A stretch of 64,000 bases of DNA from Microbacterium sufflavum (lineage in GTDB: Bacteria > Actinomycetota > Actinomycetes > Actinomycetales > Microbacteriaceae): the NCBI RefSeq assembly GCF_023091155.1, contig NZ_JAHWXK010000001.1, forward strand, positions 1,302,001 through 1,366,000, read 5' to 3'. The position numbers and the translations under genes are program-made. Below are positions 13,342-30,119 of this stretch, in pieces. Position 1 is the stretch's first letter, and each line of letters begins with the position of its first letter. The notes below the pieces were generated by a model. That model ran no database searches, was not told the DNA's origin, and saw nothing but the letters and a program-made list of their open reading frames with translations.

Positions 13342-13962
13342 ATGAGGATTTCCGAACTGTCGGCGCAGACCGGCGTGACCGTGCCGACGATCAAGTACTA
13401 CCTGCGCGAGGGGCTGCTCCCCGAGGGCGAGCGGTCTTCGCCGACCCAGGCCGCGTACGGCGAGAAGCACGTGGAGCGGCTGCGGGTGATCCGGGCGCTG
13501 CTCGACGCCGGCGTGAGCATCGCCGAGACGCGCCGGGTGCTCGGCGCGCTGGACGACCCGCCCGCGAATCCGCACGAGCTACTGGGGACCGCGCACGCCG
13601 CGATCACCCCGTCGGTGGAGGAGTCTGTGGATCTGGCGGAGGCTGAAGCCCTGGTCGAGGGGCTCGGGTGGAAGCCGGGGATGTGCGACGAGGCGGTGCT
13701 GCACGCGGTCGCCCGGGCGTTGGATGGCTTGGAGCGCGCGGGCTTCGTCGTGCCGAAGGCCGTGATGCGCGAGTACCTGCGGTCGGCGCGGCGCATCGCG
13801 GATGCCGAGATCGCAGGGGTGCCGGGGGAGTCCGCGGAGGCGGCGGTGCGGTACGTGGTGTTGGGGTCGGTGCTGGTGGAGCCGCTGCTGTTGGCGCTAC
13901 GGCGCGTGGCGCAGCAGGTGAGCTCGGGGGAGCGGTTTAATCAGAATCGGATCGCACCCTAA
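13342..13962 (+). CDS. MerR family transcriptional regulator
   Basis: The 206-aa protein has an N-terminal MerR helix-turn-helix and wing (MRISELSAQTGVTVPTIKYY, then REGLLPEGER) and a short coiled coil (RLRVIRALLDAGVSIAETRR). The C-terminal effector domain has no recognisable Cys metal site. ATG 13342 is preferred to GTG 13336 because AGAGGTGG then acts as the ribosome site. The dyads at 13287-13324 make DUF4188 its likely target. It is the last backbone gene before the defence island. Confidence 0.87.
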   Translation: MRISELSAQTGVTVPTIKYYLREGLLPEGERSSPTQAAYGEKHVERLRVIRALLDAGVSIAETRRVLGALDDPPANPHELLGTAHAAITPSVEESVDLAEAEALVEGLGWKPGMCDEAVLHAVARALDGLERAGFVVPKAVMREYLRSARRIADAEIAGVPGESAEAAVRYVVLGSVLVEPLLLALRRVAQQVSSGERFNQNRIAP

Positions 13963-14183
13963 GCATGAGTCGGTCCGGTGTTCCCACCGCACAAATGAAA
14001 CCGTCGCCGCGCCCCGCCCGCGATCCATGCAGCGGGCATCGCTTTAGGTGATCACGTCCGAACACGATGCTCCCCTGGAACCGTCGTGGGAGTTGGCACT
14101 TTCAAATGTCCGAGGTCTGCAATAGTTTGAGAGACTTTCCCGCGAGTCGGGAGCGGTGCATTAACAGGAGGCGGGGAACAAGC
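13963..14183. other. Left boundary of defence island, no gene seen
   Basis: These 221 bases separate MerR from operon A. I see no gene, tRNA or clear direct repeat matching the right boundary (33200-33314). A small hairpin TCCCG-N5-CGGGA (14138-14152) and the AGGAGG before the first defence gene are the only structured elements. The promoter of operon A must lie here. Confidence 0.5.
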
Positions 14184-14777
14184 GTGAGTAAGTTCACGAT
14201 TGGGCCGGTGAGCGTCGAAGTGCTCAATGGCGAGCATGCAATTGCGGTCGTCCCGCCCAGCCAGTGGCATGGCGATAGGCAGGAGCGCCCCGCCCACGCC
14301 GTCCTCGCCAACCTCAAGGCCGACGACGGTCTTCGCGCACAGGTCTCGCTGGTTCGCTGGGACGACAGCGACGAGATTTCGCTCGGCTTCGCCGAGCTGC
14401 TCGCTGGCCCGTCGGACTATGAGCGGTTGGAGGATGCAGGGGCGATCTCGCCGAAGCTCGTGGGCGACAAGCTGGTCGCGCGGATTCGTGCGCTGCGATA
14501 TGGGAAGACCGGGCGAGCAACCGGCGCTGCGGTCGAGTGGGCGCAGATCAGCGATTGGGCGGGCGGCGATGCGCAGGTGATGCTTGCCGACCTTGGCGCG
14601 ACGCGCACGGGCGCGTATGGCGTCCTGCTGCCGAGCGCGACACGCTTCAAGACCGAGCCGGCCATCGAGGTGGCCATCTCCGATCCGACGGCGTTGTTCG
14701 CGGCCTACGCGCTCACGCGTGTCGTGCCGATCATGACTGGCTATGGCAAGGAATCGGTGGAAGGCCCGAACGCATGA
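14184..14777 (+). CDS. Operon A gene 1: unrecognised 197-aa protein
   Basis: I do not recognise this protein. It starts VSKFTIGPVSVEVLNGEHAI at GTG 14184, twelve bases after AGGAGG. It is soluble, mixed alpha/beta, with no Cys pair, Walker motif or nuclease motif that I can see. A hydrophobic helix-like stretch (DPTALFAAYALTRVVPIM) lies near the C-terminus. Its stop is inside ATGA with the HEPN gene, so it is part of the defence operon and probably needed in similar amounts. A longer frame from 14067 is possible but lacks a ribosome site. Confidence 0.7.
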   Translation: MSKFTIGPVSVEVLNGEHAIAVVPPSQWHGDRQERPAHAVLANLKADDGLRAQVSLVRWDDSDEISLGFAELLAGPSDYERLEDAGAISPKLVGDKLVARIRALRYGKTGRATGAAVEWAQISDWAGGDAQVMLADLGATRTGAYGVLLPSATRFKTEPAIEVAISDPTALFAAYALTRVVPIMTGYGKESVEGPNA

Positions 14778-15844
14778 GTGGCGTCGACGTCTCCATCGCG
14801 CTGCCCGAGGACGAGACGCCTGGCGAACTCATCAAGGGTTACTTCACCCTTATGCGCGCATTCGGGTGGGATCTCTACGTCACGAGCCACTTCGCGCTAC
14901 GCGAGTCGTTGGGGCCGCAGTGGTTCGCGGCCCGGATCAGCGAACTGAAGGACTCGGACCCGAAGAACTGGCGACCCAACCATCGCTTCGAGCCGCAGGA
15001 CCCCGGTGTGATCCTCCGCGACTACATCCACGAGCAGGACTCGCCGTATCTGAGCGTGTTCGGCGGACAGTTCCAGAAGCAGACCGCCGCGAAGAAGATC
15101 CTCGCCACGAGGAACATGTGGTTCCACTTCGGCGACGATCCGACGACCGCCCAGCTCGAAGAGACGGCGAAGGTCGTGCGCGGATTCGTGCAGTCCAGCG
15201 ACATGCATATCGCCGGACGTATCGACGCGCTGATCGAGCGCCTGAGCGACCTGCGCACGGGGCGCTATTCCGCGGATGCCGCGTCGAGTGTGCCTGCGAC
15301 GGTTCCTACCGTCGCCGAGCCTGAACCGTTCGACGCGCCAGACGACTTGCCCCGGCCGAGCATCGGCGGCACCTGGATCGGTCCCATCCCCGAGCTGCGC
15401 TATCGCATGACTCGTGCGGGCGACGTCGTGCATCCCGACACGATGGAGTCCGTGCGTTCCGGGGTTGTCGGAGACTTCGCAGGCAAGGTGCGTGCCTGGA
15501 CTGCTGTCGAGCCGAGGGGCCGCGAACTGTGGATCGACCGCGACGGGGCCGTGGGCGGGTTCATCGGGGCTACCCCGCGGCTGCTTGGCTACCTCGGCCC
15601 CGACCCGGACGGCGATATCGCCCGCGGGTTCTTCACGCCACACTTCTATGCCGTCGACGGCGACGAGATCGCCGCCCTCGACTCGGGTGAACGCCGCAAG
15701 GCGCCGTTCGCCCAGGGGCTCGCGGACGGCGCGATGCTTCGGGTCACGACGTATGGGGATGTCCTGGTCGTCGGGGACGCAGACGGTCTGCAGCGGGTGG
15801 CGACGGTGACGGCTGCCGAGTGGTTTCCGGGACATCTCGGATGA
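14774..15844 (+). CDS. Operon A gene 2: Swt1-type HEPN domain protein
   Basis: The 356-aa protein carries R113-N114-M-W116-F-H118 (ATRNMWFHFGD), the R-N-x-W-x-H pattern of Swt1-type HEPN domains, after a helical lead (GQFQKQTAAKKIL). Swt1 HEPN domains are known in anti-phage proteins, often fused to DUF499 ATPases; here the domain is free. The C-terminal half (from about residue 190, after a Pro/Ala linker) contains strand-rich sequence (GGTWIGPIPELRYRMT) that I do not recognise. It could be an RNase effector or an assembly subunit. ATGA overlaps on both sides tie it to its neighbours. Confidence 0.72.
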   Translation: MSGVDVSIALPEDETPGELIKGYFTLMRAFGWDLYVTSHFALRESLGPQWFAARISELKDSDPKNWRPNHRFEPQDPGVILRDYIHEQDSPYLSVFGGQFQKQTAAKKILATRNMWFHFGDDPTTAQLEETAKVVRGFVQSSDMHIAGRIDALIERLSDLRTGRYSADAASSVPATVPTVAEPEPFDAPDDLPRPSIGGTWIGPIPELRYRMTRAGDVVHPDTMESVRSGVVGDFAGKVRAWTAVEPRGRELWIDRDGAVGGFIGATPRLLGYLGPDPDGDIARGFFTPHFYAVDGDEIAALDSGERRKAPFAQGLADGAMLRVTTYGDVLVVGDADGLQRVATVTAAEWFPGHLG

Positions 15845-18800
15845 GCGTGGAGAGAGTAGGGAACGTGTCGGCATTGCAGCTTGACGGGTCGAGCACGGTC
15901 GCGTGGGCGGATGCGCCAGCGGGCGCGGCCGACGCCATCGTCGTCCTCGGCCGGGATGACGCCGGGGCAGGAGCGATCCAGGTGGGTATCGCCCGCCTGG
16001 CCACGCGGCCGACGAAGGGCGTGCTCGATGACCTGTGGAAGTCGCGCGGCACGCGGGCTCCGATGGGTTTCATCGTCGCAGCCGTCACGCCGGAGGGCGT
16101 ATGGATTCACTACCCGTCCGCGGACGCCCCGCCCATCGGCCCCATCACGGTCGGTCAGGCGGAGAGACAGCTTCAGTCTGTGCTGGAGGAAGGGAACGGG
16201 CTCGCCGCCCACGGGCGTATTCGTGCCATCCAGGAGGCGATGTCCTCGGCGGGCACGGACGGCTTCTCCAACCACTTCCTGTTCGCCACCTACCACCTGA
16301 ACCGCGATGTGCCTCGCCGCCCGGATTGGGAGTCGGCGGGCAAGAAGGCGACGCCGATCCTGCCCAAGCGCGGAATCGAGCTGGTCACCGCGCTCGGGTT
16401 CGACACCGAGCCCGCGGGGTCGGAGCGGCTGCTCGTCCTGCGCACCTCCAGCGGCCCACGCCGCGCCGTCGCGGTGCTTCTGCGTGACGACGAGCACTTC
16501 AATCAGAAGTCCACGACGTACCAGCTCACACCCGTCGCCAAGGCGCTCGAAATCGCTGGCCGCGAGGACGTGCCGTGGGTGATCGCGCTGCGCAAGTCCA
16601 CCCTGCGGCTCTACCCAGGACGCGACGGTGTCGGCGTCGGCCAGCGCGGGCAGTCCGAGACCTACTTCGAGCTGGATCTCGATCTGCTCGCGCCCGAGCA
16701 GGCTGCATTGCTCACACTGATCTTCTCCGCCGAGGCGCTCGACGCGGGCGGCTCCGCGCAGCAGATCCTCGATGGTTCTGGCAAGTATGCCGCCGACCTC
16801 GGCACGCGCCTGCGCGACCGTGTGTACGAAGGCGTGGTGCCTCGGGTCGCGCTCGCCATCGCCGATCAGCTCCCGTCGCTCGGGCTCGCGCTCGACGCTC
16901 AGGGTCTTCAGATGGCGTACCGCCTGACGATGCGCATCCTGTTCCGGCTGCTCTTCCAGGCGTACGGGGAGGCGACCGAGCTGCTGCCCGCGGGTCGCAA
17001 CGATCACTACGACGCCAACTCGCTCCAAGCGTTCATCACCCGCGAGATCGGCACCGGCCCCGACCAGTTCTCCACTGAGTCGGCAGCGATCTGGTCGGAT
17101 CTCACGCAGGTGTGGGAGGTCATCTTCCATGGCAACTCCCGCTGGGAGGTGCCCGCCTACGGCGGCAGCCTGTTCGACCCGGCTACCGAAGAGGGCGCGC
17201 TGCTGTCGCGCGTCAAGCTCACCGACAGCGTGATCGGCCCGGCCCTCCAGGAACTCCTTAGCGAGGAGACCGTCGACCGGACCTGGGGGCCGGTCGACTT
17301 CCGCAGCCTCCAGGTGCGCGAGTTCGGCACCATCTACGAGGGTCTGCTGGAATCCAGCCTCTCGCTCGCCGAGCAGAACCTCACCGTCGACCGGAACGGC
17401 GCATACGTTCCCGCGAAGGATGGCGATGAGGTCGTCGCGCCCGCGGGTCGCCCGTACTTCCACTCCGCCTCGGGGGAGCGCAAGGCGACCGGTTCGTACT
17501 ACACGCCGAAGATCGTCGTGGATCACCTCATTGAGCGGTCGGTCGAGCCCGCGCTGAAGGCCCACCTCGACCGGATCAAGACCCTCATGGACGAGGGCAA
17601 GGAACGCCAAGCTTCTGACGCCTTCTTCGACTTCCGCGTCGCCGACCTGGCGATGGGATCCGCCCATTTCCTCGTCGCCGCCGTAGACAAGATCGAGCGC
17701 GGTATGCGCGACTTCCTCACCGCCACCGAGGTGCCGGGCGTGCGTGCCGAACTCGCACGCCTCGCGGAGAAGGCGCGTGAGGCGCTCGGACAGGACACGG
17801 ACGGCGCGAAGGCGATCACGGACGGCCAGCTCCTTCGCCGTCAGGTGGCACGTCGCTGTATCTATGGCCTCGACATCAACCCGCTGGCCGTCGAGCTGTC
17901 ACAGCTCGCGCTCTGGATTCACACCTTCGTGCCCGGCCTGCCGATGTCGAGCCTCGACCATGGACTCGTCCTCGCCAACTCCCTCACTGGCATCGGCACC
18001 ATCGACGAGGCGATGGTCGCGCTGAAAGCCGACGGCCTGTTCGAGCAGATCATCCGCGAGCCGCTGACGTCCGCACGCGACCTCCTCATCGACTACGCGA
18101 ACGCCTCAGAGGCCGACAAATCGGAGGTCGCGGCCGGTGCCGAGACGCTGGCGAAGGCACGCGAGGCAGCGACCCCGGCGAAGGCGATCTTCGACGTGGC
18201 CGTCGCCAAGCGCCTTGGCGTGACGATTGACGAGGCGTGGGACGCCGAGCAGTTCGTAGCTCTCGCGGCGATGCGCGAGGTGCGCGAAGCCGTCGATCCG
18301 CTCCAGCCTGCGCACATGCCTTATCTCTTCCCCGAGGTGTTCCTTCGTGAGCGGCCCGGCTTCGATGTGCTGGTCGGGAATCCGCCGTGGGAGAAGCTTC
18401 AGGTCGAGGAGCACTCCTTGTATGCGCTTACCTACCCTGGGCTCCGGGGACTGGCACAAGAGGACGCCGAGACACTTGTCCAGAAGATTCGTGCTGAGCG
18501 TCCAGATCTGGTGTCAGCATATGACCTCGCCACAACGTCCATGAAGAGCGTGCAGACGGTGCTCGCACGAGGACCGTTTCCAGGGATGACATCCGGTAGG
18601 CCGGACCTGTACAAGGCGTTCGCCTGGCGATTCTGGCAGTTGGCGCGTACCGATGGGCGGGTTGGCATCGTTCTCCCGCGGAAGGCGCTTGAAGCATCGG
18701 GGATGAAGGATTGGCGGCTGGCCATGCTTAAGCACGGGACGTTCACGGACGTGTCGGTGCTCGCGAACACGGGGGGCTGGGTCTTCCCCGGAATCGATCA

Positions 18801-19869
18801 ACGGCTGACCGTTGCCGCCATATCGATCCTCGCGGACCATACGCAAAGCGCGAAGTCGGCCGTCATCCGTGGGCCCTTCACTTCAGCTCAGGCATTCACT
18901 GAGAGTGCGCTCCACGAGACGGCTCCCGTCGACGTGGCTGCATTGCTTTCATGGTCGCCCGGAGGCGTATTTCCGCTGTTGCCGAATGCGGCAAGCTCCG
19001 AGGTCTTCTTCGCACTACGCTCGCAGCCGCGTCTCGATCACGAAGACGACATGTTTAGCGTCCGAGGGCTCCGTGAATGGAACGCCACTGACGACAAGCA
19101 CCGGTTCACCCTCGGCGCGAAGCCGGCCGATTTCATCCCCGTCTATAAAGGTGACTCCTTCGATCTTTGGAATCCGAGCACGGGCTCTGTCTATGCATGG
19201 GCGGACCCCGACCGTATGAACCGAGAGCTCCAGGAGCGTCGCGCGAATCAGGTGCGTATTCGGCGGTCAGCTTTCTTTGGCATGCCGGATACATGGGCGT
19301 CCGACTCAGAAACTCTGCCGATGCATCGTCCGCGAATCGCCTGGCGCGACACGACCAACCGCACGAATCAACGCACCCTCATTGCGGCGATGGTCCCGCC
19401 GCGGATCGTCATGGTGCACCAGGCGTACTACCTCTTCTTCCGGCGAGGAACCTCCCGCGATGAGGCCTATGTGCTGGGTGTGCTCTCATCCCTACCGTTC
19501 GACTGGTATGCGCGTCAGATGGTGGAGACCCATGCCACAGTGGAGTTCCTACTTGGATCTCCTGTACCGCGGCCGGACGACAACTCCCCCTTGCGTAGGC
19601 GGATAATCGAGATCTCAGGTCGTCTTGCCGCGGTCGACGAGCGCTACCAGGCATGGGCCGTTGAGGTCGGCGTTGAGGTCGGCACCGCTAACACCGAACC
19701 TGTCAAGTCGGAGCTCATCGCGGAACTAGACGCACTCGTGTCGATCCTCTACGGGCTGACGCCGGAGCAGGTGGAGCACGTCTTTGCCACGTTCCATCGT
19801 GGCTGGGACTACGCCGCGCGGCTGGAACGGGTGCTCGCGTACTACGAGCAGTGGAAGGACGCGGCATGA
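15841..19869 (+). CDS. Operon A gene 3: Eco57I-like N6-adenine DNA methyltransferase
   Basis: The 1342-aa protein is built like a type IIG or PglX/DrmMI-type methylase. An N-terminal region (about 130-300) has the outline of a type I/IIG nuclease domain ending VPWVIALRKSTLRLY, but I find no clear E-x-K. Residues 497-504 are TIYEGLLE, then G551-SYYTPK, methylase motif I ADLAMGSAHF (601-610), DINPLAVELSQLALW (from 678) and catalytic NPPW (847-850). The region after about 870, presumably target recognition, has lower GC and different codon use. It should methylate adenine to mark self DNA. ATG 15841 and the stop both sit in ATGA overlaps. Confidence 0.85.
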   Translation: MSVERVGNVSALQLDGSSTVAWADAPAGAADAIVVLGRDDAGAGAIQVGIARLATRPTKGVLDDLWKSRGTRAPMGFIVAAVTPEGVWIHYPSADAPPIGPITVGQAERQLQSVLEEGNGLAAHGRIRAIQEAMSSAGTDGFSNHFLFATYHLNRDVPRRPDWESAGKKATPILPKRGIELVTALGFDTEPAGSERLLVLRTSSGPRRAVAVLLRDDEHFNQKSTTYQLTPVAKALEIAGREDVPWVIALRKSTLRLYPGRDGVGVGQRGQSETYFELDLDLLAPEQAALLTLIFSAEALDAGGSAQQILDGSGKYAADLGTRLRDRVYEGVVPRVALAIADQLPSLGLALDAQGLQMAYRLTMRILFRLLFQAYGEATELLPAGRNDHYDANSLQAFITREIGTGPDQFSTESAAIWSDLTQVWEVIFHGNSRWEVPAYGGSLFDPATEEGALLSRVKLTDSVIGPALQELLSEETVDRTWGPVDFRSLQVREFGTIYEGLLESSLSLAEQNLTVDRNGAYVPAKDGDEVVAPAGRPYFHSASGERKATGSYYTPKIVVDHLIERSVEPALKAHLDRIKTLMDEGKERQASDAFFDFRVADLAMGSAHFLVAAVDKIERGMRDFLTATEVPGVRAELARLAEKAREALGQDTDGAKAITDGQLLRRQVARRCIYGLDINPLAVELSQLALWIHTFVPGLPMSSLDHGLVLANSLTGIGTIDEAMVALKADGLFEQIIREPLTSARDLLIDYANASEADKSEVAAGAETLAKAREAATPAKAIFDVAVAKRLGVTIDEAWDAEQFVALAAMREVREAVDPLQPAHMPYLFPEVFLRERPGFDVLVGNPPWEKLQVEEHSLYALTYPGLRGLAQEDAETLVQKIRAERPDLVSAYDLATTSMKSVQTVLARGPFPGMTSGRPDLYKAFAWRFWQLARTDGRVGIVLPRKALEASGMKDWRLAMLKHGTFTDVSVLANTGGWVFPGIDQRLTVAAISILADHTQSAKSAVIRGPFTSAQAFTESALHETAPVDVAALLSWSPGGVFPLLPNAASSEVFFALRSQPRLDHEDDMFSVRGLREWNATDDKHRFTLGAKPADFIPVYKGDSFDLWNPSTGSVYAWADPDRMNRELQERRANQVRIRRSAFFGMPDTWASDSETLPMHRPRIAWRDTTNRTNQRTLIAAMVPPRIVMVHQAYYLFFRRGTSRDEAYVLGVLSSLPFDWYARQMVETHATVEFLLGSPVPRPDDNSPLRRRIIEISGRLAAVDERYQAWAVEVGVEVGTANTEPVKSELIAELDALVSILYGLTPEQVEHVFATFHRGWDYAARLERVLAYYEQWKDAA

Positions 19870-22800
19870 CCGACCAGCTTCCGGTCTTTGCGACGAACCG
19901 GATCGCGCCGCCGATGACGGTGCGCGAGGAGGTGCGTCGGCTGTTCCGGGTCAACCGGGAGGCGCTTGCGGTGCCGCCGAGCGCCGCGATTGCGACGGCC
20001 TACATCAACCCGGCAGGGTTCCTGTTGCTCGCTGATGAGTTGGAGAAGCTGCCGCGCATCCGCATCCTGCTCGGGGCCGACCCGGTGCCCGATCCGCTGC
20101 TGCCGGTGGATGCCGACGCGACGCTCCAGAAGCGACTCGATGCGGCGCTGACCGACCATGTGCGCTGGCTGAAGGCGGAGCGCGACGCGCTCGGGTTCGA
20201 GCTTCGGGCTACCCAGTCGGCGCAGCGGCTCGTGGCGTGGCTGCGTGCCGCCGACGAGCGCGGTGAGCCGATTGTGGAGATCCGCCGCTATACGGGCGGG
20301 TTCCTGCACGGCAAAGCATTCATCAGCCACCACCCGACGCATCCCGCGTATCTCGCGGGGTCGTCGAACCTGACCTACGCTGGGCTCACGCGCAACGCCG
20401 AGCTGAACGTCGGCGCGTCTGGGCAGCACGGGTCGACGCCGCAGGTGATCGACTGGTTCGAGGAGTGCTGGGCCGACTCCGAAGTCTTCGACCTGGCGGG
20501 TCTGTACGAGCCGCTGTGGGCCGAGCACACCCCGTGGAGCGTCTTCCTCCGCATGTTGCTGGCCCGCTACGGCGAGCACCTCGACGATGAGCAGGCTGGT
20601 CCGACGCGCTTCGAGCTGACCCGGTTCCAGGCCGACGGCGTGAAGCGGATGCGGCGGCTGTTGGAGGAGATCGGCGGCGTGCTGGTGGCCGACGAAGTGG
20701 GTCTTGGTAAGACTTTCCTTGCGCTCGAAGTGATCGCAGCGGCCACGGAGCAGCAGCGTCAGCGCGTGCTTGTCGCAGCTCCCGCAGCGCTGAAGGCATC
20801 GGTGTGGGACCCGGTGCTGGAGCGGTATGACATCTCTCGCCGCGTCTCGGTGCACTCCTATGAGGAGATTCGCAGCCGCATGGACCCGGGGCACCCGGAG
20901 CACCTCGGGTTCTACGAGCGTGCCGAGGACGCTGCGCTGGTGATCGTGGATGAGGCGCACAACCTGCGGAACGCGGGAGCTGCGCGCTCGGAGGCGCTGG
21001 ATCGGATCATCCTCGCGGGGCGGCACCCGAAGAAGGTCGTGCTGCTGACCGCTACGCCGGTGAACAACTCGCTCATCGACCTGGAGACCCTGGTCAAGTA
21101 CTTCATCCGCGACGATGCGCGCTTCGCCTCCATCGGCATCCCGTCGATCCGGAAGTACATCCGCGATGCACAGGCGCTCGACCCGGAGGCGCTGACGCCC
21201 GCGCACCTGTTCGACCTGATGGATCAGGTCGCGGTGCGGCGCACCAGGAAGTTCGTCAAGGACAACTACCGCGGCGAGACGATCGCCGGGCCGGGCGGCA
21301 AGAAGATCCCGGTCGAGTTCCCCGACGCCGACGTGCGTCGCGTGGACTATCAGCTCGACGAGCCCGGCGAAGTGCTGGTCGATGCGGTCACCTACGCGCT
21401 CGACATCCCGGATAACGAGGCACACGTCGCGTCGTTCAGTGTGCGCCGAAGCGACCCAGGCCGTCTGCTGCTCGCGCGGTACGTCCCGAGCCGGTATCTG
21501 AGGACCGAGGACCTGAACAAGACGGAGGTCTCGAACATGGGGCTGCTGCGCTCCGCGCTGCTCAAGCGCCTCGAATCCTCGCCGACCGCACTGGCCGGCA
21601 CGCTCGGCGTGCTCATCCAGACGCACGAGGCGTTCCTCTCCGCCCTCGGCAAGGGCACCGTGCTCGTCGGCGGTGCGCTGCGCGACTATGTCAACTCCGA
21701 GTCGGAGGATCTTGACGAGATCGTCGCCGGGCTCGACGAGGACACCGAGCATCAGGCCACTGCCGCAGAGCTGTACGACGCGGAGCTGCTGGCATCGGAT
21801 GTCGAGCGGGACCTCTTGCTGATCCGTCATCTCCAGGCACTCGCCGAGGCGGCGGCGCACGACGGCGAGCCGAAGGTCGCGGCACTGCTCGCCGAGCTGG
21901 AGCGCATCGCGGCCGAGGCCGAGAAGCCCGCCGTGACGAACGCGCCGAGCGGCGACCGGAGAAAGGTCATCGTCTTCTCCACGTACGCCGACACCATCCG
22001 CGACCTACACGAGCGGCTCATCGCTGCGCTGGAGGCGGTGCCCGACGGCTCGCCGCTCGCGGCCTACCGTGGCCGCGTCGCGCCCGCGGTGATCGGCGAG
22101 TTCGCCTCGGGCAAGCGCGGCGGCATCGACCAGCCAACCCGTGCGAAGGCGGTCGCCAATTTCGCGCCCCGCACCGCCGGCCAGCTCCGCGACGACGGCA
22201 CTCCCATCGAGGCGGACCTCTACGACATCCTGCTGACGACCGACGTGCTCGCCGAGGGCGTGAACCTCCAGCAGGCCGCGCACATCGTCAACTACGACCT
22301 GCCGTGGAACCCGATGCGCATCGTGCAGCGCCACGGCCGCGTCGACCGCATCGGCAGCCAGCACAAGTCCATCGAACTCGACGTGTTCTTCCCCGCCGAG
22401 CATCTCGACGAGTTCCTCGGGCTGGAGCAGACCCTGATCCGCAAGCTCCGGCAGGCGGACGCGGCCATCGGCGCGGGCAAGGTGCTCCCCGGCGTCTCGC
22501 ACTACCCGCCGCAGGAGCACTACGACCCCGACGCGATTGTCGGCGAGATCGAGGAACTCATCGAGCAGGGCGGCGGCTCGGCAGCGGGATCGGGGGAGGA
22601 GTACCGGAGACGCCTCGCCAACGCGCTCGACGCCGACCAGGCGCTCCGCGGACGGCTCGAGGACCTGCCGTACGGTATCGGCAGCGGGTTCGTGAACCCA
22701 GCAGTCTCCGGCCGCTCCTTCGTGTTCTGCATGAAGATGGGCGACAGCGGCCACATCTGGTTCCGCAACGTGAATGCCGACAACGCCTGGCAGCCCGTCG

Positions 22801-23315
22801 CCGACGAGGATGGTCGGATCGTGGTCGACGACACCTTGATCTCGCTCGTCACGGCTGACCCCGGCAGGCCTGACAGGCCGCGCTCTCTGCCCGACGAGGC
22901 GTTCCGCGCTGCCTACGAGGCATGGGCGCTCGCACAGGAGGATGCGCACGACGAGTGGATGCGCTCCACCGACCCGAACGCCCTCGCCGCCGAGATCCCG
23001 GCAGCCTTCCGCGACGCGCGAGAGGTCATCCTGAACAAGGGCGGCTACCTCGGCGCCGCACAGCTCCAGACCATCAAGCGCCTCAACACTGTGCCTACCG
23101 CCAAGGCGAGGAAGGCCATGCGGGCCGCACTTCGGACCCCCGGCAAGCCCGAGGCTGTTGTCGACGCGATCATCCAGGTGCTCGACGGGTTCGGCATCCA
23201 GCCCGCAGAGAAAGTCGAACCGCTTCCGCCCATCGCGCTCGACGACGTGCGCCTCATCGCTTGGATGGCGGTCGAAGGGACGAAGGCGACGGAGACCCAA
23301 GGAGGCGCGTCGTGA
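19866..23315 (+). CDS. Operon A gene 4: phospholipase D-SNF2 helicase fusion
   Basis: This is a 1149-aa cytoplasmic protein. The N-terminal ~230 residues are a PLD-like nuclease domain: FLHGKAFI with H-x-K near residue 147, followed by GSSNLTYAGLTRNAELNVG. A superfamily 2 helicase follows, with motif I ADEVGLGKTF near 275-285, motif II VDEAHN near 360, motif III LLTATPVNN near 395, and motif VI HGRVDRIGS near 822. A C-terminal region of ~300 residues follows. Such PLD-helicases occur in phage-defence islands next to methylases; DISARM instead carries PLD (DrmC) and SNF2 (DrmD) as separate proteins. Probably the DNA-tracking restriction component. Confidence 0.85.
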   Translation: MTDQLPVFATNRIAPPMTVREEVRRLFRVNREALAVPPSAAIATAYINPAGFLLLADELEKLPRIRILLGADPVPDPLLPVDADATLQKRLDAALTDHVRWLKAERDALGFELRATQSAQRLVAWLRAADERGEPIVEIRRYTGGFLHGKAFISHHPTHPAYLAGSSNLTYAGLTRNAELNVGASGQHGSTPQVIDWFEECWADSEVFDLAGLYEPLWAEHTPWSVFLRMLLARYGEHLDDEQAGPTRFELTRFQADGVKRMRRLLEEIGGVLVADEVGLGKTFLALEVIAAATEQQRQRVLVAAPAALKASVWDPVLERYDISRRVSVHSYEEIRSRMDPGHPEHLGFYERAEDAALVIVDEAHNLRNAGAARSEALDRIILAGRHPKKVVLLTATPVNNSLIDLETLVKYFIRDDARFASIGIPSIRKYIRDAQALDPEALTPAHLFDLMDQVAVRRTRKFVKDNYRGETIAGPGGKKIPVEFPDADVRRVDYQLDEPGEVLVDAVTYALDIPDNEAHVASFSVRRSDPGRLLLARYVPSRYLRTEDLNKTEVSNMGLLRSALLKRLESSPTALAGTLGVLIQTHEAFLSALGKGTVLVGGALRDYVNSESEDLDEIVAGLDEDTEHQATAAELYDAELLASDVERDLLLIRHLQALAEAAAHDGEPKVAALLAELERIAAEAEKPAVTNAPSGDRRKVIVFSTYADTIRDLHERLIAALEAVPDGSPLAAYRGRVAPAVIGEFASGKRGGIDQPTRAKAVANFAPRTAGQLRDDGTPIEADLYDILLTTDVLAEGVNLQQAAHIVNYDLPWNPMRIVQRHGRVDRIGSQHKSIELDVFFPAEHLDEFLGLEQTLIRKLRQADAAIGAGKVLPGVSHYPPQEHYDPDAIVGEIEELIEQGGGSAAGSGEEYRRRLANALDADQALRGRLEDLPYGIGSGFVNPAVSGRSFVFCMKMGDSGHIWFRNVNADNAWQPVADEDGRIVVDDTLISLVTADPGRPDRPRSLPDEAFRAAYEAWALAQEDAHDEWMRSTDPNALAAEIPAAFRDAREVILNKGGYLGAAQLQTIKRLNTVPTAKARKAMRAALRTPGKPEAVVDAIIQVLDGFGIQPAEKVEPLPPIALDDVRLIAWMAVEGTKATETQGGAS

Positions 23316-23435
23316 GAGGTAGGGTGACGTTGCGTCTCCGGCTCGTTTCCAGAGAACTTGATTCTCATCGCGTTCTCGCTGTTGAGCGCGTCCTTCTCGT
23401 CGCCGAAGCAAGAAGCAGAAAGGTCGTCGACGGCA

Positions 23436-25199
23436 ATGAGCAATGAGGTTGTGCTTGTCGATCAGTTCATCAAGGCCGCGCAGGACAGTCGGGATGCGCC
23501 GTTGCCAGACGACGTTGCGTTCGAGCTGTTCGCTGCAGCGACGGTGCTCAGTGGCAACAACATGAGTGACGAGGAAGTAGAGGCGGGGCGCATTGGAGGT
23601 GGTCTAGACGGTGGGCTGGACGCCGTGTACACCTTCCTCGATGGCCGTCTCCTCAGCGAAGACGCGGAGATCTTCGAGGATGGGTTCAAGCCGAGTGAGA
23701 TTCGGAAGGGTGCTGAGCTCTCACTTTGGTTGATCCAAGCAAAACGGTCCGAGGGGTTCGGAGAAGACGCCTTTGATAAGGCCGGGGCGAGTATGAAGAA
23801 GCTGCTCGACCTGAACTTCACTGACGAGCAGCTCGTTGGGATCTACTCGGCTGATGTAATCGAGCGCGTGCGCATCTTCACTCGGGCGTGGACTTTGCTG
23901 AGTATCCGGTCTCCGCGTATCTCGATTACGTTCGCGTACGTTTCACGCGGCGATACGGCGAGCGTCTCTGGTGGCGTGGCGCAGAAGATGGTCGATGTAC
24001 GCACGGAACTCGGCGCTTTGGTCCCAGGTGCTGAAGTTGATGTTCGCGTCGTGGGCGCCAAGGAGCTTTGGGCGATGGCGAGCGCGACGCCGGAATACGA
24101 TCTTCAGCTCCGATTCAGGGACTACATCTCGGAAGGGGACTCCTACGCGGGCCTAGTCGCGCTGCCGGAGTACTTTCGGTTCCTGTCAGATGACAATGGG
24201 GCGCTGCGGGGGCATCTCTTCGACTGGAACGTTCGAGACTTCCAAGGCGCAGTTACCGTGAACAGGCAGATGAAGGCGACGCTGGAAGCTGATGACGACA
24301 GGGACTTCTGGTGGCTCAATAATGGAGTCACGATCCTCTGTTCGGCAGTCAATATCGGTGGTGAGAAGACGTTCACTCTCTCGGGCGTCCAGATCGTCAA
24401 CGGGATGCAGACGTCGCACGCGATTCATGACGTGCTCACGGCCACGGGTGCGGACCTTGATCGGCACAAGCGCCGATCTGTACAGGTCCGCGTGATCAAA
24501 ACCCTGGACGAGGCGACGCGTGATGACGTCATCAGGGCTACAAACAGCCAGACGAAGGTTCCTGACGCATCGCTTCACGCGACCGAGGATCTCCATCGGC
24601 AGATCGAGTCGCACTTCGCCGCAAGAGGCTGGTACTACGACCGACGGAAGAACTTCTACAAGAACGCCGGCAAGCCCGCGGACAAGATCATCAGCATCCC
24701 CACCCTGGGCCAGGCGGTCATGGCGATCGGTCTCAGCCGTCCGGATGATGCGCGCGCGCGTCCCTCAACGCTGCTCAACAATGAAGCGGACTATGCCGCG
24801 GTGTTCAGCGTGTCATTGAGCCTGGATGTCTACCTCTGGATTGCTGCTGTCCAGCGGCGCGTCGATTCGCTCCTTCTGACTGAGGGCGTCGCCGATGCGC
24901 CGACTAGGACGAACACCCGCTTCTACATCAGCAGCTATCTCGTGACGAAGGCGCTGGGCGCGCAGATCTACAACCCGAGCCAGCTAAAGACCCTTTCGCA
25001 GGCACCGCTCTCCATAGACGCCGACGACGTAAAGGCTGGACTTGCTGTCGTCAGCGAAGAGATCCAACGCATCGCCGACAAGAACTCTTGGCAGGTCGAT
25101 CGCGTGGCGAAGAGTGACTTGCTGACCAAGGCGGTGGTTGCGCGGGCAGTCGCGGGCGCCACCAACCAATCCGAAACAGATGCTGTCGACGTCCCCTGA
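23436..25199 (+). CDS. Operon A gene 5: AIPR family abortive-infection protein
   Basis: The 587-aa protein fits the AIPR family (abortive infection phage resistance). Near residue 290 it has NNGVTILCSAVNIGG followed by VQIVNGMQTSHAI, the family hallmark. The N-terminus has GGGLDGGLDAVY (D58, D62) and WLIQAKRS (Q101-x-K103), a spacing that suits a PD-(D/E)xK-like nuclease site. It follows the helicase by 120 bases, the only gap in operon A, and its GC is visibly lower (32 of 60 bases at 23761-23820). ATG 23436 has only a weak ribosome site; an upstream in-frame start at 23358 looks less likely. Confidence 0.83.
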   Translation: MSNEVVLVDQFIKAAQDSRDAPLPDDVAFELFAAATVLSGNNMSDEEVEAGRIGGGLDGGLDAVYTFLDGRLLSEDAEIFEDGFKPSEIRKGAELSLWLIQAKRSEGFGEDAFDKAGASMKKLLDLNFTDEQLVGIYSADVIERVRIFTRAWTLLSIRSPRISITFAYVSRGDTASVSGGVAQKMVDVRTELGALVPGAEVDVRVVGAKELWAMASATPEYDLQLRFRDYISEGDSYAGLVALPEYFRFLSDDNGALRGHLFDWNVRDFQGAVTVNRQMKATLEADDDRDFWWLNNGVTILCSAVNIGGEKTFTLSGVQIVNGMQTSHAIHDVLTATGADLDRHKRRSVQVRVIKTLDEATRDDVIRATNSQTKVPDASLHATEDLHRQIESHFAARGWYYDRRKNFYKNAGKPADKIISIPTLGQAVMAIGLSRPDDARARPSTLLNNEADYAAVFSVSLSLDVYLWIAAVQRRVDSLLLTEGVADAPTRTNTRFYISSYLVTKALGAQIYNPSQLKTLSQAPLSIDADDVKAGLAVVSEEIQRIADKNSWQVDRVAKSDLLTKAVVARAVAGATNQSETDAVDVP

Positions 25200-25217
25200 A
25201 CGCTTCCTCATGCGTCG

Positions 25218-25237
25218 GGTGTGGTAGCCCCCGCACC
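25218..25237. terminator. Weak stem-loop between converging defence operons
   Basis: GGTGTGG (25218-25224) pairs with CCGCACC (25231-25237) with one G-T wobble and a 6-base loop, in the 103-base gap where operons A and B converge. No U-run is present, so terminator function is uncertain. Confidence 0.35.
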
Positions 25238-25302
25238 ATGCGATCCGAAGGGACGACTGATCTACCCGGGTGGAGAAGGGGCGGCCGAACCGTCGATGGT
25301 TG

Positions 25303-28300
25303 TCACCCGTTCCCTGGTGGCCGAAGATCGAGTGCCCCGGCCTCAAGGTCCCGGTCCACGCCACCCTGCTGCATCAGCCGCAGCATGTCCTCCTGTCGGG
25401 GTTGCCCGAGGGTGAGGCGGTACAGGGTCAAGGCGTCCAGCAGCCGCTCGTACTTGTCGTGGTCGCGGCTCAACGTGAACGAGGCGATCCGCCGGTGGAT
25501 CCGGGCGTCCCCCTCGTAGACCCACCACGGCGCGAATTCGCCGAGCCGTTCGGTGTCGGGTGATGCGAGCGCGGCGGTGAACGCGGCGTCCCACGCCCCC
25601 TCCGTCGAGGACAGCACGTCCTCCCAGTGCGCGGCGGCCACGTTCTTGCGCACGGCGTGGCCCATGAACCGGTGCACCCGGCCTTCGCGCTGCTCGAAGT
25701 CGACGGGGTTCGACGGCAGGTTCCAGTGCACGACGGCATGGCTCCACCAGTGAAAGTCGATCCCCTCCTGGCCGATGCTCGTCGACGCCAGCACGAACGG
25801 GGCGAACGGGCTGTTGAACGCGGCTCGCACTTCGCTCTGACGCGCCGCGACCTTCTCGTCGGCGTCCGTGCCCGCGCCGCCGTACCGCACCGCGAACCTC
25901 GTCGCGAACGGGATCTGTGCACGCTCAGCAGTCGCCTCGTGCCCGCGCAGCGTCGCCGCGTTCGTCCGCACCGCTGATGCCGCACTCGTCGCGACCTTCC
26001 ACAGCCCGTCGTCATCGAGCAGCCCCCCACCGAGGTCACTGCGCAACTGGTGGACGTACTCGTCGATGACCGCCTGCAGGTTCCCGTCCGCGCAGTAGTC
26101 CAGCACGGCGCTCCAGTAGTGCGCGCCCGGGTCGCCCACGGTGTCGAGAAGTGCCGCGGTGTCCGGCCGGGCGAAAAGCGAACGCAGACCGAGCGACAGC
26201 ACCCACGCCGCATGCCACACACCCGCCTCCGTTGCATCCGCCGACGCGGCACCGCGCAACGCTCGATACGCGATCGACCCCGGAGCATGCGCGCCGAACC
26301 GGGCCAGGTCGCGGTGCACGCCGGGGTCCTCATCCATCGCGTCGACCGCCGCCCGCACATAGTCCGCGAAACGGCCAGACCGCGCGTCGAGCACCCGCAG
26401 CACCGACGATGCGTTCACGCCCGCCGGCACGGCACCGGCTGTCGCGAAGAAGGCGTGCGAGGGCTCGGCAGCGTCGTCCTCGGCGGCCGTGCTCGCCGTG
26501 AACGCCTCCGCATCGACGAGCCCGCCAGCCGCACGCGCCGCCCGCAGCGGATCCCACGACTGTGCCAGTGTCGGATGCGGCCAGAACAACGCCAGCGAGT
26601 TCATCTGCGATGGTCGCCCCGCCTCGCTCATCGCCCACGTCAACCGACTGCTCGACGAATCCGTCGACCGGTCCGAACCCGCATACGCGCGGCGAGCAGC
26701 CTCGTGACTGAGCAGACCAGCGACTGCGGTCGGCACCCCGTTCCACGCCGAGAACACGACGTGCTTCGTGACATCCCCCACGCTCGAGAACACGGGGCCC
26801 GGCCGCAGATACGGCATCGACGGCGGCATCCAGAGCAGCTTCCACCAGCCGCCCCCGATCGTGTCGGCGGCCAACGCGCGCAGCAGTCCGTTGCCGAGAT
26901 CGAGCTCCTCCCGCGCACTCACGTCGTCCCGCGTCAGCCCTCGGGTTGCCGCCAACAGTTCGCGGACGGCGACATCGTCCCGGCCGAGCGCGTCCCGAAC
27001 ACTGCTCCCCGACTTGTACGTGTCCATGAACGAGGCGAAGTGCGGGATCGACTTCCACTGCTCCAGATCCACCCGCGCCCCGATGTGGGTGCCGAGCCGA
27101 TGCAGCGCCGACCAGTCGGCGATCTCCGCCGCGGTCGGCACCCCGCCGTCGAGCGGACGGTCGATCACCATGTCCTGATTGCGCGCCAGCGGCGGCCGCT
27201 CCGACCGCGACAGATACGGAAGCAGCACCTCCCGCACCCGGCGCGCGGAAGCTTCGGCATCGCCGTCGGTGATCATGGCGAGCCGGTGCGCGTCGAGCGC
27301 ATCCTTGACCGCTCTGACACGCGCGTCGTCCTCGTCGGTGAGGAACTCGATGAGCTTGAGGAAATCGGCATGGTGGTCCTCGCCAGCCTCGGCCTGTGTC
27401 GTATAGGGCTTGAACGGCGTCGCCGAGAGGAGCAGGACCTTGGCGCCATCGGCGTTGAACAGGTCGTGGGCGAGCTCACCGCCCTCGGTCGTCGGATCGA
27501 GGAGCGGGCGGAAACGCTGGAACTCGTCGAGGATGATGAGGTCGGGCTCGAGGGCGTCCACCCCCGCCCGCGCCAGATGCCGACGTAGCTTCGCGACGAG
27601 CTCCATCACCTCGTGCCACAGTCGACCGCGGGTCGGGCGTTCGCCCAGGGTCCGGACCTCCTCGCGGAGCTCGAGGAACCGCGCCCACAGCTCGTCCTTG
27701 ACGATGGCCTCCTGGTAGCGCCCGGCGATCTCGTGATCGGCGCCCTCCTCGCCCAGACGGTCTCGCGTCCACTGCACACGCCCCGCGAAGTTCCTCGCCG
27801 ACTGCACCGCTCCCTGGAAGAGCCAGCGCGTCGGCTCGTCCTCGTCCACACCGAGCACATCCTCCGCCAGTACGCACAGCAGCGCCCGCTCGTCGCCGTT
27901 GCCCGAGCGCCAGCCGCCCTCCTTGAACGAGGTGCCCGGGGTGAACGAGACGAGGTTCACCTTCTTGCGGCTCGTGTCGTCGGCGGCTGCGAGCTTGCGG
28001 CTCTCGCGCGCCAACAGCGTGAGCCGCGTTGCCATCGCGAGGTGCTTGTCGCCGGTGACGTTCAGACGCTGCAGGTTCTGGTTGGCGAGGTCGGCGTTGC
28101 TGCAGATGTACACGATGTCGATGCGCTTCACGGCGTCGACCTCGTTCAACTCCTGGATCGCCCTGGCGATGATCCCCCGCGCGATCACGCTCTTGCCCAA
28201 CCCGGTCTCGTCCGCGACGAGGAACCGCCCGCTGCCGTCGACACGCCCTGACCCGTAGAAACGGTCGATCACATGCTCCACTGCGTCCTGCTGGAAGCCC

Positions 28301-28341
28301 TTGAGCCCGCGCATCACCGCCTCGACGTCGAGACCCGTCAT
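25303..28341 (-). CDS. Operon B gene 5: SNF2-type helicase
   Basis: The 1012-aa helicase starts MTGLDVEAVMRGLKGFQQDA, with a Q-motif-like segment at 13-29 and Walker A ADETGLGKS at 43-51. Motif II is unusual, ILDEFQRF near 270, followed by LLLSATPFKPYTT near 304. Motif V/VI (IGQEGIDFHWWS, then EQREGRVHRFMGH) lies near 860-890. No nuclease domain is fused; the nuclease is encoded by the preceding gene, whose stop overlaps this ATG (ATGA 28341-28338). It probably translocates on DNA as the motor of operon B. Confidence 0.83.
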   Translation of the reverse strand: MTGLDVEAVMRGLKGFQQDAVEHVIDRFYGSGRVDGSGRFLVADETGLGKSVIARGIIARAIQELNEVDAVKRIDIVYICSNADLANQNLQRLNVTGDKHLAMATRLTLLARESRKLAAADDTSRKKVNLVSFTPGTSFKEGGWRSGNGDERALLCVLAEDVLGVDEDEPTRWLFQGAVQSARNFAGRVQWTRDRLGEEGADHEIAGRYQEAIVKDELWARFLELREEVRTLGERPTRGRLWHEVMELVAKLRRHLARAGVDALEPDLIILDEFQRFRPLLDPTTEGGELAHDLFNADGAKVLLLSATPFKPYTTQAEAGEDHHADFLKLIEFLTDEDDARVRAVKDALDAHRLAMITDGDAEASARRVREVLLPYLSRSERPPLARNQDMVIDRPLDGGVPTAAEIADWSALHRLGTHIGARVDLEQWKSIPHFASFMDTYKSGSSVRDALGRDDVAVRELLAATRGLTRDDVSAREELDLGNGLLRALAADTIGGGWWKLLWMPPSMPYLRPGPVFSSVGDVTKHVVFSAWNGVPTAVAGLLSHEAARRAYAGSDRSTDSSSSRLTWAMSEAGRPSQMNSLALFWPHPTLAQSWDPLRAARAAGGLVDAEAFTASTAAEDDAAEPSHAFFATAGAVPAGVNASSVLRVLDARSGRFADYVRAAVDAMDEDPGVHRDLARFGAHAPGSIAYRALRGAASADATEAGVWHAAWVLSLGLRSLFARPDTAALLDTVGDPGAHYWSAVLDYCADGNLQAVIDEYVHQLRSDLGGGLLDDDGLWKVATSAASAVRTNAATLRGHEATAERAQIPFATRFAVRYGGAGTDADEKVAARQSEVRAAFNSPFAPFVLASTSIGQEGIDFHWWSHAVVHWNLPSNPVDFEQREGRVHRFMGHAVRKNVAAAHWEDVLSSTEGAWDAAFTAALASPDTERLGEFAPWWVYEGDARIHRRIASFTLSRDHDKYERLLDALTLYRLTLGQPRQEDMLRLMQQGGVDRDLEAGALDLRPPGNG

Positions 28342-30119
28342 CGCTCCACACCCGCCGCTTCCGTCACAGCCGCCCACACCTCGGCGAACCCCGGCGGCAG
28401 GGCGCTGCCGCGCGCATCCTCCGGCACATGCCGCAGCACCCGCTCCACGTCCACGAGCCCCGACCGATTCGTGGCCGACGCGCGCACGAGAAGCTCCAGC
28501 AGTCCTGCGCCGCTATCCGCGACCCCCGCGCCGAACGCCGAAGAGAACGCGCCACCGCCGCCGGTCCCGATCGATGTGAGGCTGCCGTCCTGCAGCATGA
28601 GCCGGATGAAACGCGCCACTGCCGTCGGCTCGCTGAGGTGGGCGGCGACGATCGCGTCGCCCCGACCAGGTACGTCGTCGAGCAGGTCGGCGACCACCAG
28701 GGTCTCGCGCCGGCGGCCGTCACCATCCGTGAGCGCGATCGCCACGAACGGAGTGATCTGCTCCAGGCGGAGAGCCGGGGACTCGTAGGGGTCGTCGGCG
28801 GTCGGCAGAGGTCCGGGGATCGGCTCCGGCTGCGACAGCATCCGCCAGGTCAGCGTGTACCGGTCGTCCGCGGTCGGTGCGGCCTCCGCCCAGACGGTAA
28901 CCGTGTACTCGCCCTCCGCGTTCACCCGAAGCGCGAGGCGGGCGCGGGCGACCTCCCGCAGGGCGTTCTCCAGCCGACGGTCGGCCTCCTCCTCCTCCTC
29001 CTCCTGGCTGCTCTCGGCGCCGCCCGCGGTCGCGTACTCCTCCATCAGCGGGGCGAGCGACCCGAGCACTGCCTCGACGCCGAAGTGCGACTTCGGCCCC
29101 TCGGCCTCGACCATCACCTCGACGTTGTTCGACCAGGCCGGCCCGGTGGCATTCGCCGACCCCACGAGCACCGTCGACTGCTTGTGGGCGTGGTCGTGCA
29201 CCACCACCTTCGCGTGCAGCCCGCGCAGTTCTCCGGCAGACACAGCCGAGGTCTCGGCGTCGGCGAGCGCCAGATCCACCATCTCGTCGAGCACCCGCAG
29301 CGAGAGTCCCTGCAGCGTCTCGGGGTGCAGCCGGTCCAGCGCCTCGGGACGGCTGAGCAGAGTCGTCTCGCCGCCTGGCCGGGCCCGAAGGATCCGCACG
29401 CCCTCATCGGTGACGAACGGGGAGACGATGGCGGTGCGGATGCCGCTGAGACGCGGTTCCGCGTCGCTCGACGGCAGCCCGATCCCGAAGGCGTGCACCC
29501 GAAGCGCCCGCACGTGGTCCGGGTGCTCCCAGCGGATGCCGGCCCACGCCTCGGCCAGCCGTGCGATGCGGGCCGCACGCGCGGGCGCGAGCGCCGGTGC
29601 CGTACGACCGTCGTCGATCAGCCAGCGCAGCACGGCGGCCATCGCGTGGTTCGAACGGACGGTCTCCGCATCGAGATCCTCGTCGGGTACGCCGTCGAGG
29701 GAGACGACGGCATCCCACGTGCGGTCGTTCGTGAGGTTCCGGCTGCTGCAGATGAAGCGGTAGCGGCGCTCCCCCTCCCGCTCGAACTCCAGGAACCACA
29801 CCTTCGGGTGGAACAGGCGGCTCCCCGGCATCCGCACCGGGTGCACCATCGGCTCGAGGACCGTGACGAGCTCGCTCGCCGTGCCGAGTCCCAAGCATCC
29901 GGCCTGCGCGAACAGGTCGATGCGCTGCGTGGCCCGCCGAACGGCCCCGAGGATGCCGACCTCGTCGTCGACCTCCACCGCACCCGCGAACGCCAGAGGG
30001 ATCGAGAGGGCCGCTTCGAGCGTCATCGTGAAGCTCGTGCCCACCGCGTGCGACAGATGGAATCCGGCCGGAGGGCGCAGCAGCTCGGACAGCAGCGAGC
30101 GGGAGTCGGGTTCAAGCAC
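28338..30119 (-). CDS. Operon B gene 4: phospholipase D-like nuclease
   Basis: The 593-aa protein has two PLD half-sites. The first is FHPKVWFLEF with H104-x-K106, followed by SSRNLTND. The second is LHAKVVVHD with H302-x-K304, followed by GSANATGPAWSNNVEVM. This matches the duplicated HxK(x)nN layout of PLD-family nucleases in defence loci. A Glu-rich stretch (SSQEEEEEEADRR) near 355-367 looks like a linker to a C-terminal domain. GTG 30119 is preferred because GAGGGG stands seven bases upstream; ATG 30134 would give five more residues. It should cut DNA presented by the neighbouring helicase. Confidence 0.8.
   Translation of the reverse strand: MLEPDSRSLLSELLRPPAGFHLSHAVGTSFTMTLEAALSIPLAFAGAVEVDDEVGILGAVRRATQRIDLFAQAGCLGLGTASELVTVLEPMVHPVRMPGSRLFHPKVWFLEFEREGERRYRFICSSRNLTNDRTWDAVVSLDGVPDEDLDAETVRSNHAMAAVLRWLIDDGRTAPALAPARAARIARLAEAWAGIRWEHPDHVRALRVHAFGIGLPSSDAEPRLSGIRTAIVSPFVTDEGVRILRARPGGETTLLSRPEALDRLHPETLQGLSLRVLDEMVDLALADAETSAVSAGELRGLHAKVVVHDHAHKQSTVLVGSANATGPAWSNNVEVMVEAEGPKSHFGVEAVLGSLAPLMEEYATAGGAESSQEEEEEEADRRLENALREVARARLALRVNAEGEYTVTVWAEAAPTADDRYTLTWRMLSQPEPIPGPLPTADDPYESPALRLEQITPFVAIALTDGDGRRRETLVVADLLDDVPGRGDAIVAAHLSEPTAVARFIRLMLQDGSLTSIGTGGGGAFSSAFGAGVADSGAGLLELLVRASATNRSGLVDVERVLRHVPEDARGSALPPGFAEVWAAVTEAAGVER

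Follow-up and report, generated by a model that had tools for sequence, protein, structure and literature searches.

What does a run of five same-strand genes in the actinomycete Microbacterium sufflavum encode, one defence system or several? The window analysed here is the 64,000-nucleotide stretch from position 1,302,001 to position 1,366,000 of contig NZ_JAHWXK010000001.1 (assembly GCF_023091155.1), and the genes, A1 to A5, were taken in an original prediction, made from the letters alone, to be a single five-gene, DISARM/BREX-like system built from a methylase, a PLD-helicase and an AIPR protein. We find that A1 to A5 are five real genes but not a single five-gene system. The conserved unit is the pair A3-A4, in which an Eco57I-like N6 methylase stands ahead of an HKD(PLD)-SNF2 fusion; A1-A2 is a separate cassette, and A5 is a separable AbiU/AIPR gene beside the core. 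The features concerned are the following.

14184..14777, + strand: A1, 197 amino acids (aa), GTG start; family unassigned; opens the A1-A2 cassette.
14774..15844, + strand: A2, 356 aa; N-terminal HEPN-like domain (RNxWxH), C-terminal beta-rich domain.
15841..19869, + strand: A3, 1342 aa; Eco57I-like N6-adenine methyltransferase including the specificity region; first core gene.
18391..19612, + strand: exchanged target-recognition region of A3, residues ~851-1257, placed by the drop in identity and by nucleotide breakpoints.
19866..23315, + strand: A4, 1149 aa; HKD (PLD) nuclease-SNF2 helicase fusion; second core gene.
23436..25199, + strand: A5, 587 aa; AIPR/AbiU abortive-infection protein; separable neighbour.
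14123..14137, + strand: TAGNNTGRNRRACTT-like conserved upstream element before A1; candidate promoter element of the A1-A2 cassette.

The gene coordinates and overlaps of the original prediction are correct as read from the sequence, with three 4-base ATGA overlaps at the A1/A2, A2/A3 and A3/A4 junctions and 120 bases between A4 and A5. Most of its domain assignments also stood when the window proteins were scanned with Pfam, PADLOC and NCBIfam models: A3 has an Eco57I methylase domain above the Pfam cut-off (expectation value, E, 1.6e-14), A4 has SNF2 and Helicase_C domains above cut-off with PLDc_2 just below it (23.6 against 27 bits), A5 is an AIPR protein (E 3.4e-40), and A1, called unknown, matches nothing in the three collections. 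The idea of a methylase/PLD-helicase defence survives as a restriction-modification-like A3-A4 unit, for which DrmB, DUF499, PglZ and BrxC were not found in the searches described further below. The five-gene grouping does not survive, the full order being seen in the window only among the loci scanned. On the strength of these comparisons we consider it probable that A3-A4 is a two-component, ATP-dependent restriction-modification system, to which A1-A2 would be an optional plug-in and A5 a separable neighbour.

The gene order of the core is its most constant property. Among the loci compared (window excluded), the methylase is followed on its own strand by the helicase in 27/27 informative cases. 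Of 32 methylase frames reaching 840 bits or more with the A3-family profile, these 27 are the ones with 3 kb or more of sequence after them. The script accounts for 26 of these loci and L065, outside the script's overlap limit and with its helicase listed there, for the last; close kin are counted without de-duplication. The gap between the two genes is at most 60 bases in 19 of the 27. By record title the core loci come from Actinomycetota, Chloroflexota, Planctomycetota, Pseudomonadota, Acidobacteriota and Gemmatimonadota, six bacterial phyla, and from haloarchaea. Relatives of A3 occur in 11/396 phylum-sampled genomes (E <=1e-50) and in 6/366 genus genomes (E <=1e-40), its own genome counted each time, and on 42 plasmid records (E <=1e-30). 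Six of the 42 span 80% or more of A3 (Paenarthrobacter, Rhodococcus, Euzebya, Mycobacterium gallinarum, Halorubrum and Halalkalicoccus); the helicase directly follows the methylase in 6/6, and the annotation of these six records mentions neither DUF499 nor PglZ nor DrmB within 9 kb. Homologues of A3, A4 and A5 reach far beyond the genus, while solid homologues of A1 and A2 were found only within it.

Some loci depart from this arrangement. Genes intervene between methylase and helicase in L055, L056, L058 and L063, and frames are broken in L017, L061 and L072. The genome-contig scan for A3 relatives took the best 80 of 459 loci, and 67 of these 80, together with L021, L023 and L050, hold methylase homologues below 840 bits that are left out of the 27/27 count; many of these are preceded by a weakly matching helicase, the DISARM class I arrangement, in some it comes after the methylase, and in others the stretch contains none. 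At L056 13864-19068, in a Planctomycetota metagenome-assembled genome, the genes between methylase and helicase are SIR2-like, a HerA-like ATPase (judged by eye), and an IrrE and DUF4411(PIN) pair.

The chromosomal site of the window also bears on which genes belong together. In the conspecific genome G1077 (L151), the site holds, in place of window positions 13938-25302 and with them all of A1 to A5, genes for a Type ISP enzyme of 1629 aa with Mrr_cat_2, ResIII, ISP_coupler and Type_ISP_C domains, for Mrr and for a DUF4238 protein (L151 1885-9402). In G919 (L152), a genus relative, the same site carries A3-A4 and an Azaca system and lacks both A1-A2 (window 13939-15843) and A5 (23295-25315). 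The slot thus swaps whole restriction systems, and the core can be parted from both A1-A2 and A5.

Where, then, does A1-A2 belong? Matches to A2 occur in 11/366 genus genomes: its own, seven solid ones, one C-terminal fragment and two too weak for use; no solid relative of A1 or A2 was found outside the genus in the samples searched. The block A1-A2-A3-A4 recurs in two other genus genomes (L043 and L045). In L044, L046 and L047 the same two genes stand ahead of a different PLD-SNF2 gene in a non-orthologous core, which in L044 continues with a methylase carrying a Type ISP specificity domain; L046 and L047 have nucleotide similarity to parts of that methylase. Nucleotide identity of A1-A2 to the window is 86% in L044 and 83% in L046, up to a breakpoint at ~15855. 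At L050 1564-10336 only the C-terminal domain of A2 is present, followed by a third core (PLD-SNF2 and a Type IIG-like methylase) and an AAA_5 gene. A1 and A2 are therefore adjacent genes that move together, as a separate cassette before two non-orthologous PLD-SNF2/methylase cores, with the A2 C-terminal domain alone before a third. Two side observations touch these genes. At L043 14527-17888 (G769) the A1-A4 block is followed by a pair best-scoring as GajA and GajB (Gabija-like), and at L018 3510-6485, some 2 kb ahead of an A3-A4 core, a protein with NERD and protein kinase domains has a C-terminus weakly like A1 (E 6e-6).

The cassette also seems to bring its own upstream element. A similar element precedes A1 in 5/5 loci examined (the window, L043, L044, L045 and L046, a comparison that excluded L047 and L048), across two core types. 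The pattern, itself derived from these sequences, matches the window once and has 0 matches in 100 shuffles; the copy at 14123..14137 is probably a promoter element of A1-A2.

As to function, A2 was predicted to be a HEPN protein, and here the motif stands while the profile evidence stays below threshold. RNxWxH is invariant in 7/7 aligned proteins and fits the HEPN RNase Rx4-6H motif, the A1 alignment likewise holding seven relatives, one of them shortened. The structural model of A2 is helical over residues 16-162 and beta-rich after about 196, with strands predominating beyond 210 (mean predicted local distance difference test score 73.6). RNase-type genes also lie within the cores of other lineages: L055 has a HEPN-like one (sub-threshold, PF05168 E 0.0011), and L056 and L058 each have a pair of IrrE and DUF4411-PIN. 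A precedent is PrrC, a HEPN-fold RNase encoded with the restriction system EcoprrI, which keeps it latent, and a general hypothesis of immunity-suicide coupling is set out in the same source (PMC3506569, available portion). From these four lines, the motif, the model, the RNase-type genes and the PrrC precedent, our best guess is that A1-A2 may be a portable, PrrC-like fail-safe RNase module. In this scheme A2 would be a probable HEPN RNase silenced by A1 and/or the core and freed on core inhibition or loss, as for PrrC with EcoprrI. A more specific version, possible and put forward tentatively, is that the A2 C-terminal domain docks on unrelated HKD-SNF2/methylase cores, that an intact core silences the HEPN domain with A1 as co-inhibitor or sensor, and that inhibition, loss or replacement of the core would free the RNase, so that the infected cell stops. 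If so, A1-A2 would be a plug-in traded among restriction systems and not a component of one system.

Against a fail-safe RNase stand the HEPN_Swt1 match to A2, which is below the Pfam cut-off (E 0.014, 16.1 against 27.5 bits; E 0.0015 and 19.2 bits for the relative in L047), and a fold search with the A2 model that gave no clear match. Moreover A1-A2 is present in just two (L043, L045) of the 32 core-family methylase loci, and so could be a passenger. A serious rival, if a somewhat doubtful one, accordingly has A1-A2 as a regulatory or stand-alone toxin-antitoxin passenger that gives a promoter to the downstream operon and has no functional link to the core. The shared upstream element before two core types favours it, as do the narrow distribution of solid matches and the copies of A2 in L048 and L049, which have no PLD-SNF2 neighbour and of which that in L049 is frame-broken. 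What it explains less well is that a PLD-SNF2 gene adjoins A2 or its C-terminal domain in 6/8 loci, and in the window too, though an A3-type core is found in so few genus genomes, and that L050 retains just the A2 C-terminal domain, next to a third core.

Turning to how the core itself might work, A3 matches PADLOC PDLC03620 (REase_MTase_IIG) over its full length (788 bits, residues 33-1338), among the best 25 of 32 PADLOC families considered for A3, and the PglX models only weakly (25.9 bits against a cut-off of 500). Its DxxMGSxHF-type and NPP(W/Y) motifs are each kept in 13/13 aligned methylases. In A4 the HGK...GS(S/A)N motif of HKD type, GLGKT and the DE box are kept in 12/12 aligned helicases, in agreement with the predicted PLD-SNF2 fusion. 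The five core-bearing genus relatives (L043, L045, L140, L141 and L142) show that one part of this pair is exchanged while the rest is nearly constant: A3 residues 1-850 are 86-98% identical to the window in 5/5, residues 851-1250 only 26-40% in the same 5/5, and residues 1251-1342 again 77-83%, except in L045, where low identity continues (18.5%); A4, from end to end, is 88-97% identical. The nucleotide breakpoints of the exchanged region lie at ~18410 and ~19612. Methylase motifs, a nuclease motif and exchangeable target recognition, the general marks of restriction-modification, can thus all be recognised in A3-A4 at the level of sequence.

We suggest that A3 very probably supplies the target specificity both for methylation and for restriction driven by A4. 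In principle A4 could recognise DNA independently, which would count against this; but if it did, a change in the methylated sequence would leave the host exposed, so the simplest reading of the natural variation has A3 giving A4 its target. In the proposed mechanism A3, with its target-recognition region, would methylate adenine within its own site. At an unmethylated site A3 and A4 would form a complex in which A3 hands the DNA over to A4; the SNF2 motor of A4 would work along it and the HKD nuclease would cut, probably as a dimer, since A4 shows one HKD-type motif. A swap of the recognition region would shift the specificity of methylation and cleavage together. The A1-A2 cassette, which has an upstream element of its own, would be an optional addition to this, and A5 would be a separable AbiU-type gene that landed next to the core.

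A different use of the same parts is unlikely, in our view: a Pgl- or BREX-like, non-cleaving or methylation-provoked defence, in which A3 would mark self while A4 would hinder or attack DNA bearing other marks, with no restriction in the classical sense. A4 does resemble SNF2 motors of the DrmD/BrxH type, and the DISARM-I and ARMADA pairs join such a helicase to a PglX-like methylase (PMC12458937, available portion). The HKD-type motif, kept in every aligned helicase, argues for cleavage instead, and no DUF499 was found in the own genome and no PglZ among the matches listed for A1-A5. It is less probable still, and we think very unlikely, that A3 by itself makes up a whole Type IIG restriction enzyme-methylase, with A4 a separate defence gene. 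The full-length PDLC03620 match speaks for this. Within A3 residues 1-540, however, no lysine is conserved in at least 11 of the 13 aligned sequences, which argues against an active PD-(D/E)XK site there and makes A4 the most likely place of cutting; the constant downstream position of A4 in the informative loci points the same way.

A5, too, can be set apart from the core, though a loose functional link between the two is conceivable. It matches the PADLOC AbiU model at 582.3 bits (residues 3-569 on model positions 1-532 of 537), which places it in the AIPR/AbiU family. No homologue was found in the 107 loci scanned, nor in L140-L142. Relatives occur on 45 plasmid records (E <=1e-20), of which three were examined. 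On a Microbacterium paraoxydans plasmid (L153 1-7548) an AIPR gene 89% identical to A5 residues 1-502 lies behind a DUF1156/DUF499 operon; the Arthrobacter and Streptomyces plasmid copies have no methylase-helicase operon directly adjoining, and a dcm gene lies ~2.4 kb from the Arthrobacter copy. L153 further shows an unknown 320-aa gene between the DUF1156/DUF499 operon and the AIPR gene, and its AIPR copy looks shortened near an ISL3 transposase. The G+C content of A5, 59.6% against 69.6% for the window, suggests that it arrived separately. All four aligned A5 sequences share the pattern D(G/C)GxD...QAK, which we take to resemble a PD-(D/E)XK core. Suicide through HEPN or AIPR, as originally proposed, is a plausible conjecture. 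The weakest reading, one integrated five-gene DISARM/BREX-like system with HEPN and AIPR obligate, draws on the ATGA overlaps joining A1-A4, on A5 following on the same strand after 120 bases and on the reported frequent association of AbiU1/AIPR with restriction-modification (PMC3506569, available portion), yet it is highly improbable given that G919 has, of these five genes, A3 and A4 alone at this site, and given A1-A2 ahead of other cores, A5 missing from the scanned loci and present on plasmids without this core, and an own genome without DUF1998/MZB or DUF499.

Beyond A5, and convergent to it, lies a second and separate defence locus, in which ZacA, ZacB and ZacC occur together at 25303-31284, identifying it as a complete Azaca system.

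25303..28344, - strand: ZacC, PADLOC 1040.5 bits; separate Azaca system.
28338..30134, - strand: ZacB, PADLOC 497.4 bits; separate Azaca system.
30112..31284, - strand: ZacA, PADLOC 410.9 bits; separate Azaca system.

ZacB has a sub-threshold NgoFVII PLD match. The Azaca stretch is 96% identical at the same site in G1077, and G919 also has a copy. An HNH endonuclease frame (window 31284-32459, - strand; PF01844 E 3.1e-6) lies directly upstream of ZacA, with a similar frame by Azaca in G919. In a Pseudomonadales metagenome-assembled genome (L061 14130-23733), ZacC-like (E 1e-59) and ZacA-like (E 5e-19) genes follow the A3-A4 core, so that Azaca adjoins this core in a second phylum.

The wider interest of the locus is threefold. 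The core is common across bacteria and haloarchaea, yet the PADLOC label for its methylase is Type IIG. The natural swaps of the recognition region beside a near-constant A4 form a ready series for asking how a methylase directs an HKD-SNF2 nuclease, and this series of A3 alleles bears on DISARM, ARMADA and BREX-related systems of similar parts. Finally, because A1-A2 stands before two non-orthologous cores, and the A2 C-terminal domain before a third, a physical coupling of immunity and suicide (PMC3506569, available portion) becomes directly testable.

How does the locus compare with systems already described? The original prediction held that the operon matched no named type. This stands in that the gene models scanned point to no one system that takes in the whole operon (the system-level rules of PADLOC and DefenseFinder were not run), and gives way for single genes, A5 being AbiU and A3 a full-length match to a Type IIG model. 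In the accessible portions of open-access PubMed Central texts no named system was found for the A3-A4 pair; the nearest descriptions are of a Type-2 BREX-related (BR) system (PMC12839542) and a DUF499 operon (PMC7641849).

The system was also predicted to be DISARM/BREX-like; membership in either was not borne out. DISARM is defined by DrmA with DrmB. The own genome has 0 matches to DUF1998/MZB (PF09369), in a search positive in 8/14 control genomes, and the predicted absence of DrmA needs the qualification that A4 does match the DrmA model (72.9 bits), on the shared helicase region. Nor are the two proteins orthologues of DrmD and DrmMI: DrmD scores 142.7 bits against a cut-off of 610, and DrmMI 200 bits against 788 for REase_MTase_IIG. 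For the BREX-related (BR/Hma) systems the DUF499 ATPase is wanting, with 0 matches to PF04465 in the own genome in a search positive in 1/14 control genomes; the predicted absence of DUF1998 and DUF499 is therefore upheld genome-wide. PglZ and BrxC/PglY, which BREX requires and whose absence was likewise predicted, are not among the matches listed for A1-A5 and the Azaca genes, a genome-wide search not having been made.

Among pairs of similar build, DrmD-DrmMI of DISARM class I and ArmA-ArmB of ARMADA resemble A3-A4 in setting a SNF2/RapA-like helicase beside a PglX/Eco57I-like N6 methylase (PMC12458937, available portion). A3-A4 differs from them in the fusion of HKD to the helicase, in having the methylase first and in a genome without DUF1998/MZB. 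Type-2 BR comes closer in this respect, with an HKD nuclease at the N-terminus of a SNF2 helicase, as in A4, and an N6 methylase; its further parts are a DUF499 ATPase and DUF3780, the latter in 98% of taxa (PMC12839542, available portion). DUF3780 has no match among A1-A5 at E up to 1, a genome-wide search not having been made. Two profile models likewise combine HKD/PLD with SNF2, and A4 scores weakly with both: C3a139 (HKD+Snf2) is its top PADLOC match at 125.4 bits, among the best 25 of 51 families considered, and NCBIfam phospholipD_antiphage (PADLOC PLD_Helicase) gives 100.8 bits against a cut-off of 1100. The C3a models describe accessory genes of type III CRISPR loci.

For the flanking genes, A2, whose latency is putative, differs from PrrC in having no ABC ATPase match and in being accompanied by A1. 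A5 corresponds to AbiU/AIPR nearly from end to end, and no single-gene difference was found.

Further parallels lie among ATP-dependent restriction enzymes. In Type ISP enzymes methylase and ATP-driven nuclease share one target-recognition region. With A3 and A4 encoded separately, and no ISP_coupler or Type_ISP_C on A3, A3-A4 is not a Type ISP enzyme; it shares with Type ISP the chromosomal slot and, as proposed here, the single recognition region, and differs in being two proteins, with an HKD in place of an Mrr-type nuclease and a SNF2 motor. The ATP-dependent systems CglI and NgoAVII have a PLD-type nuclease, an ATPase motor and a separate methylase, with nuclease and motor as separate proteins. 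A3-A4 has the same parts, and in A4 the PLD nuclease and the motor are fused.

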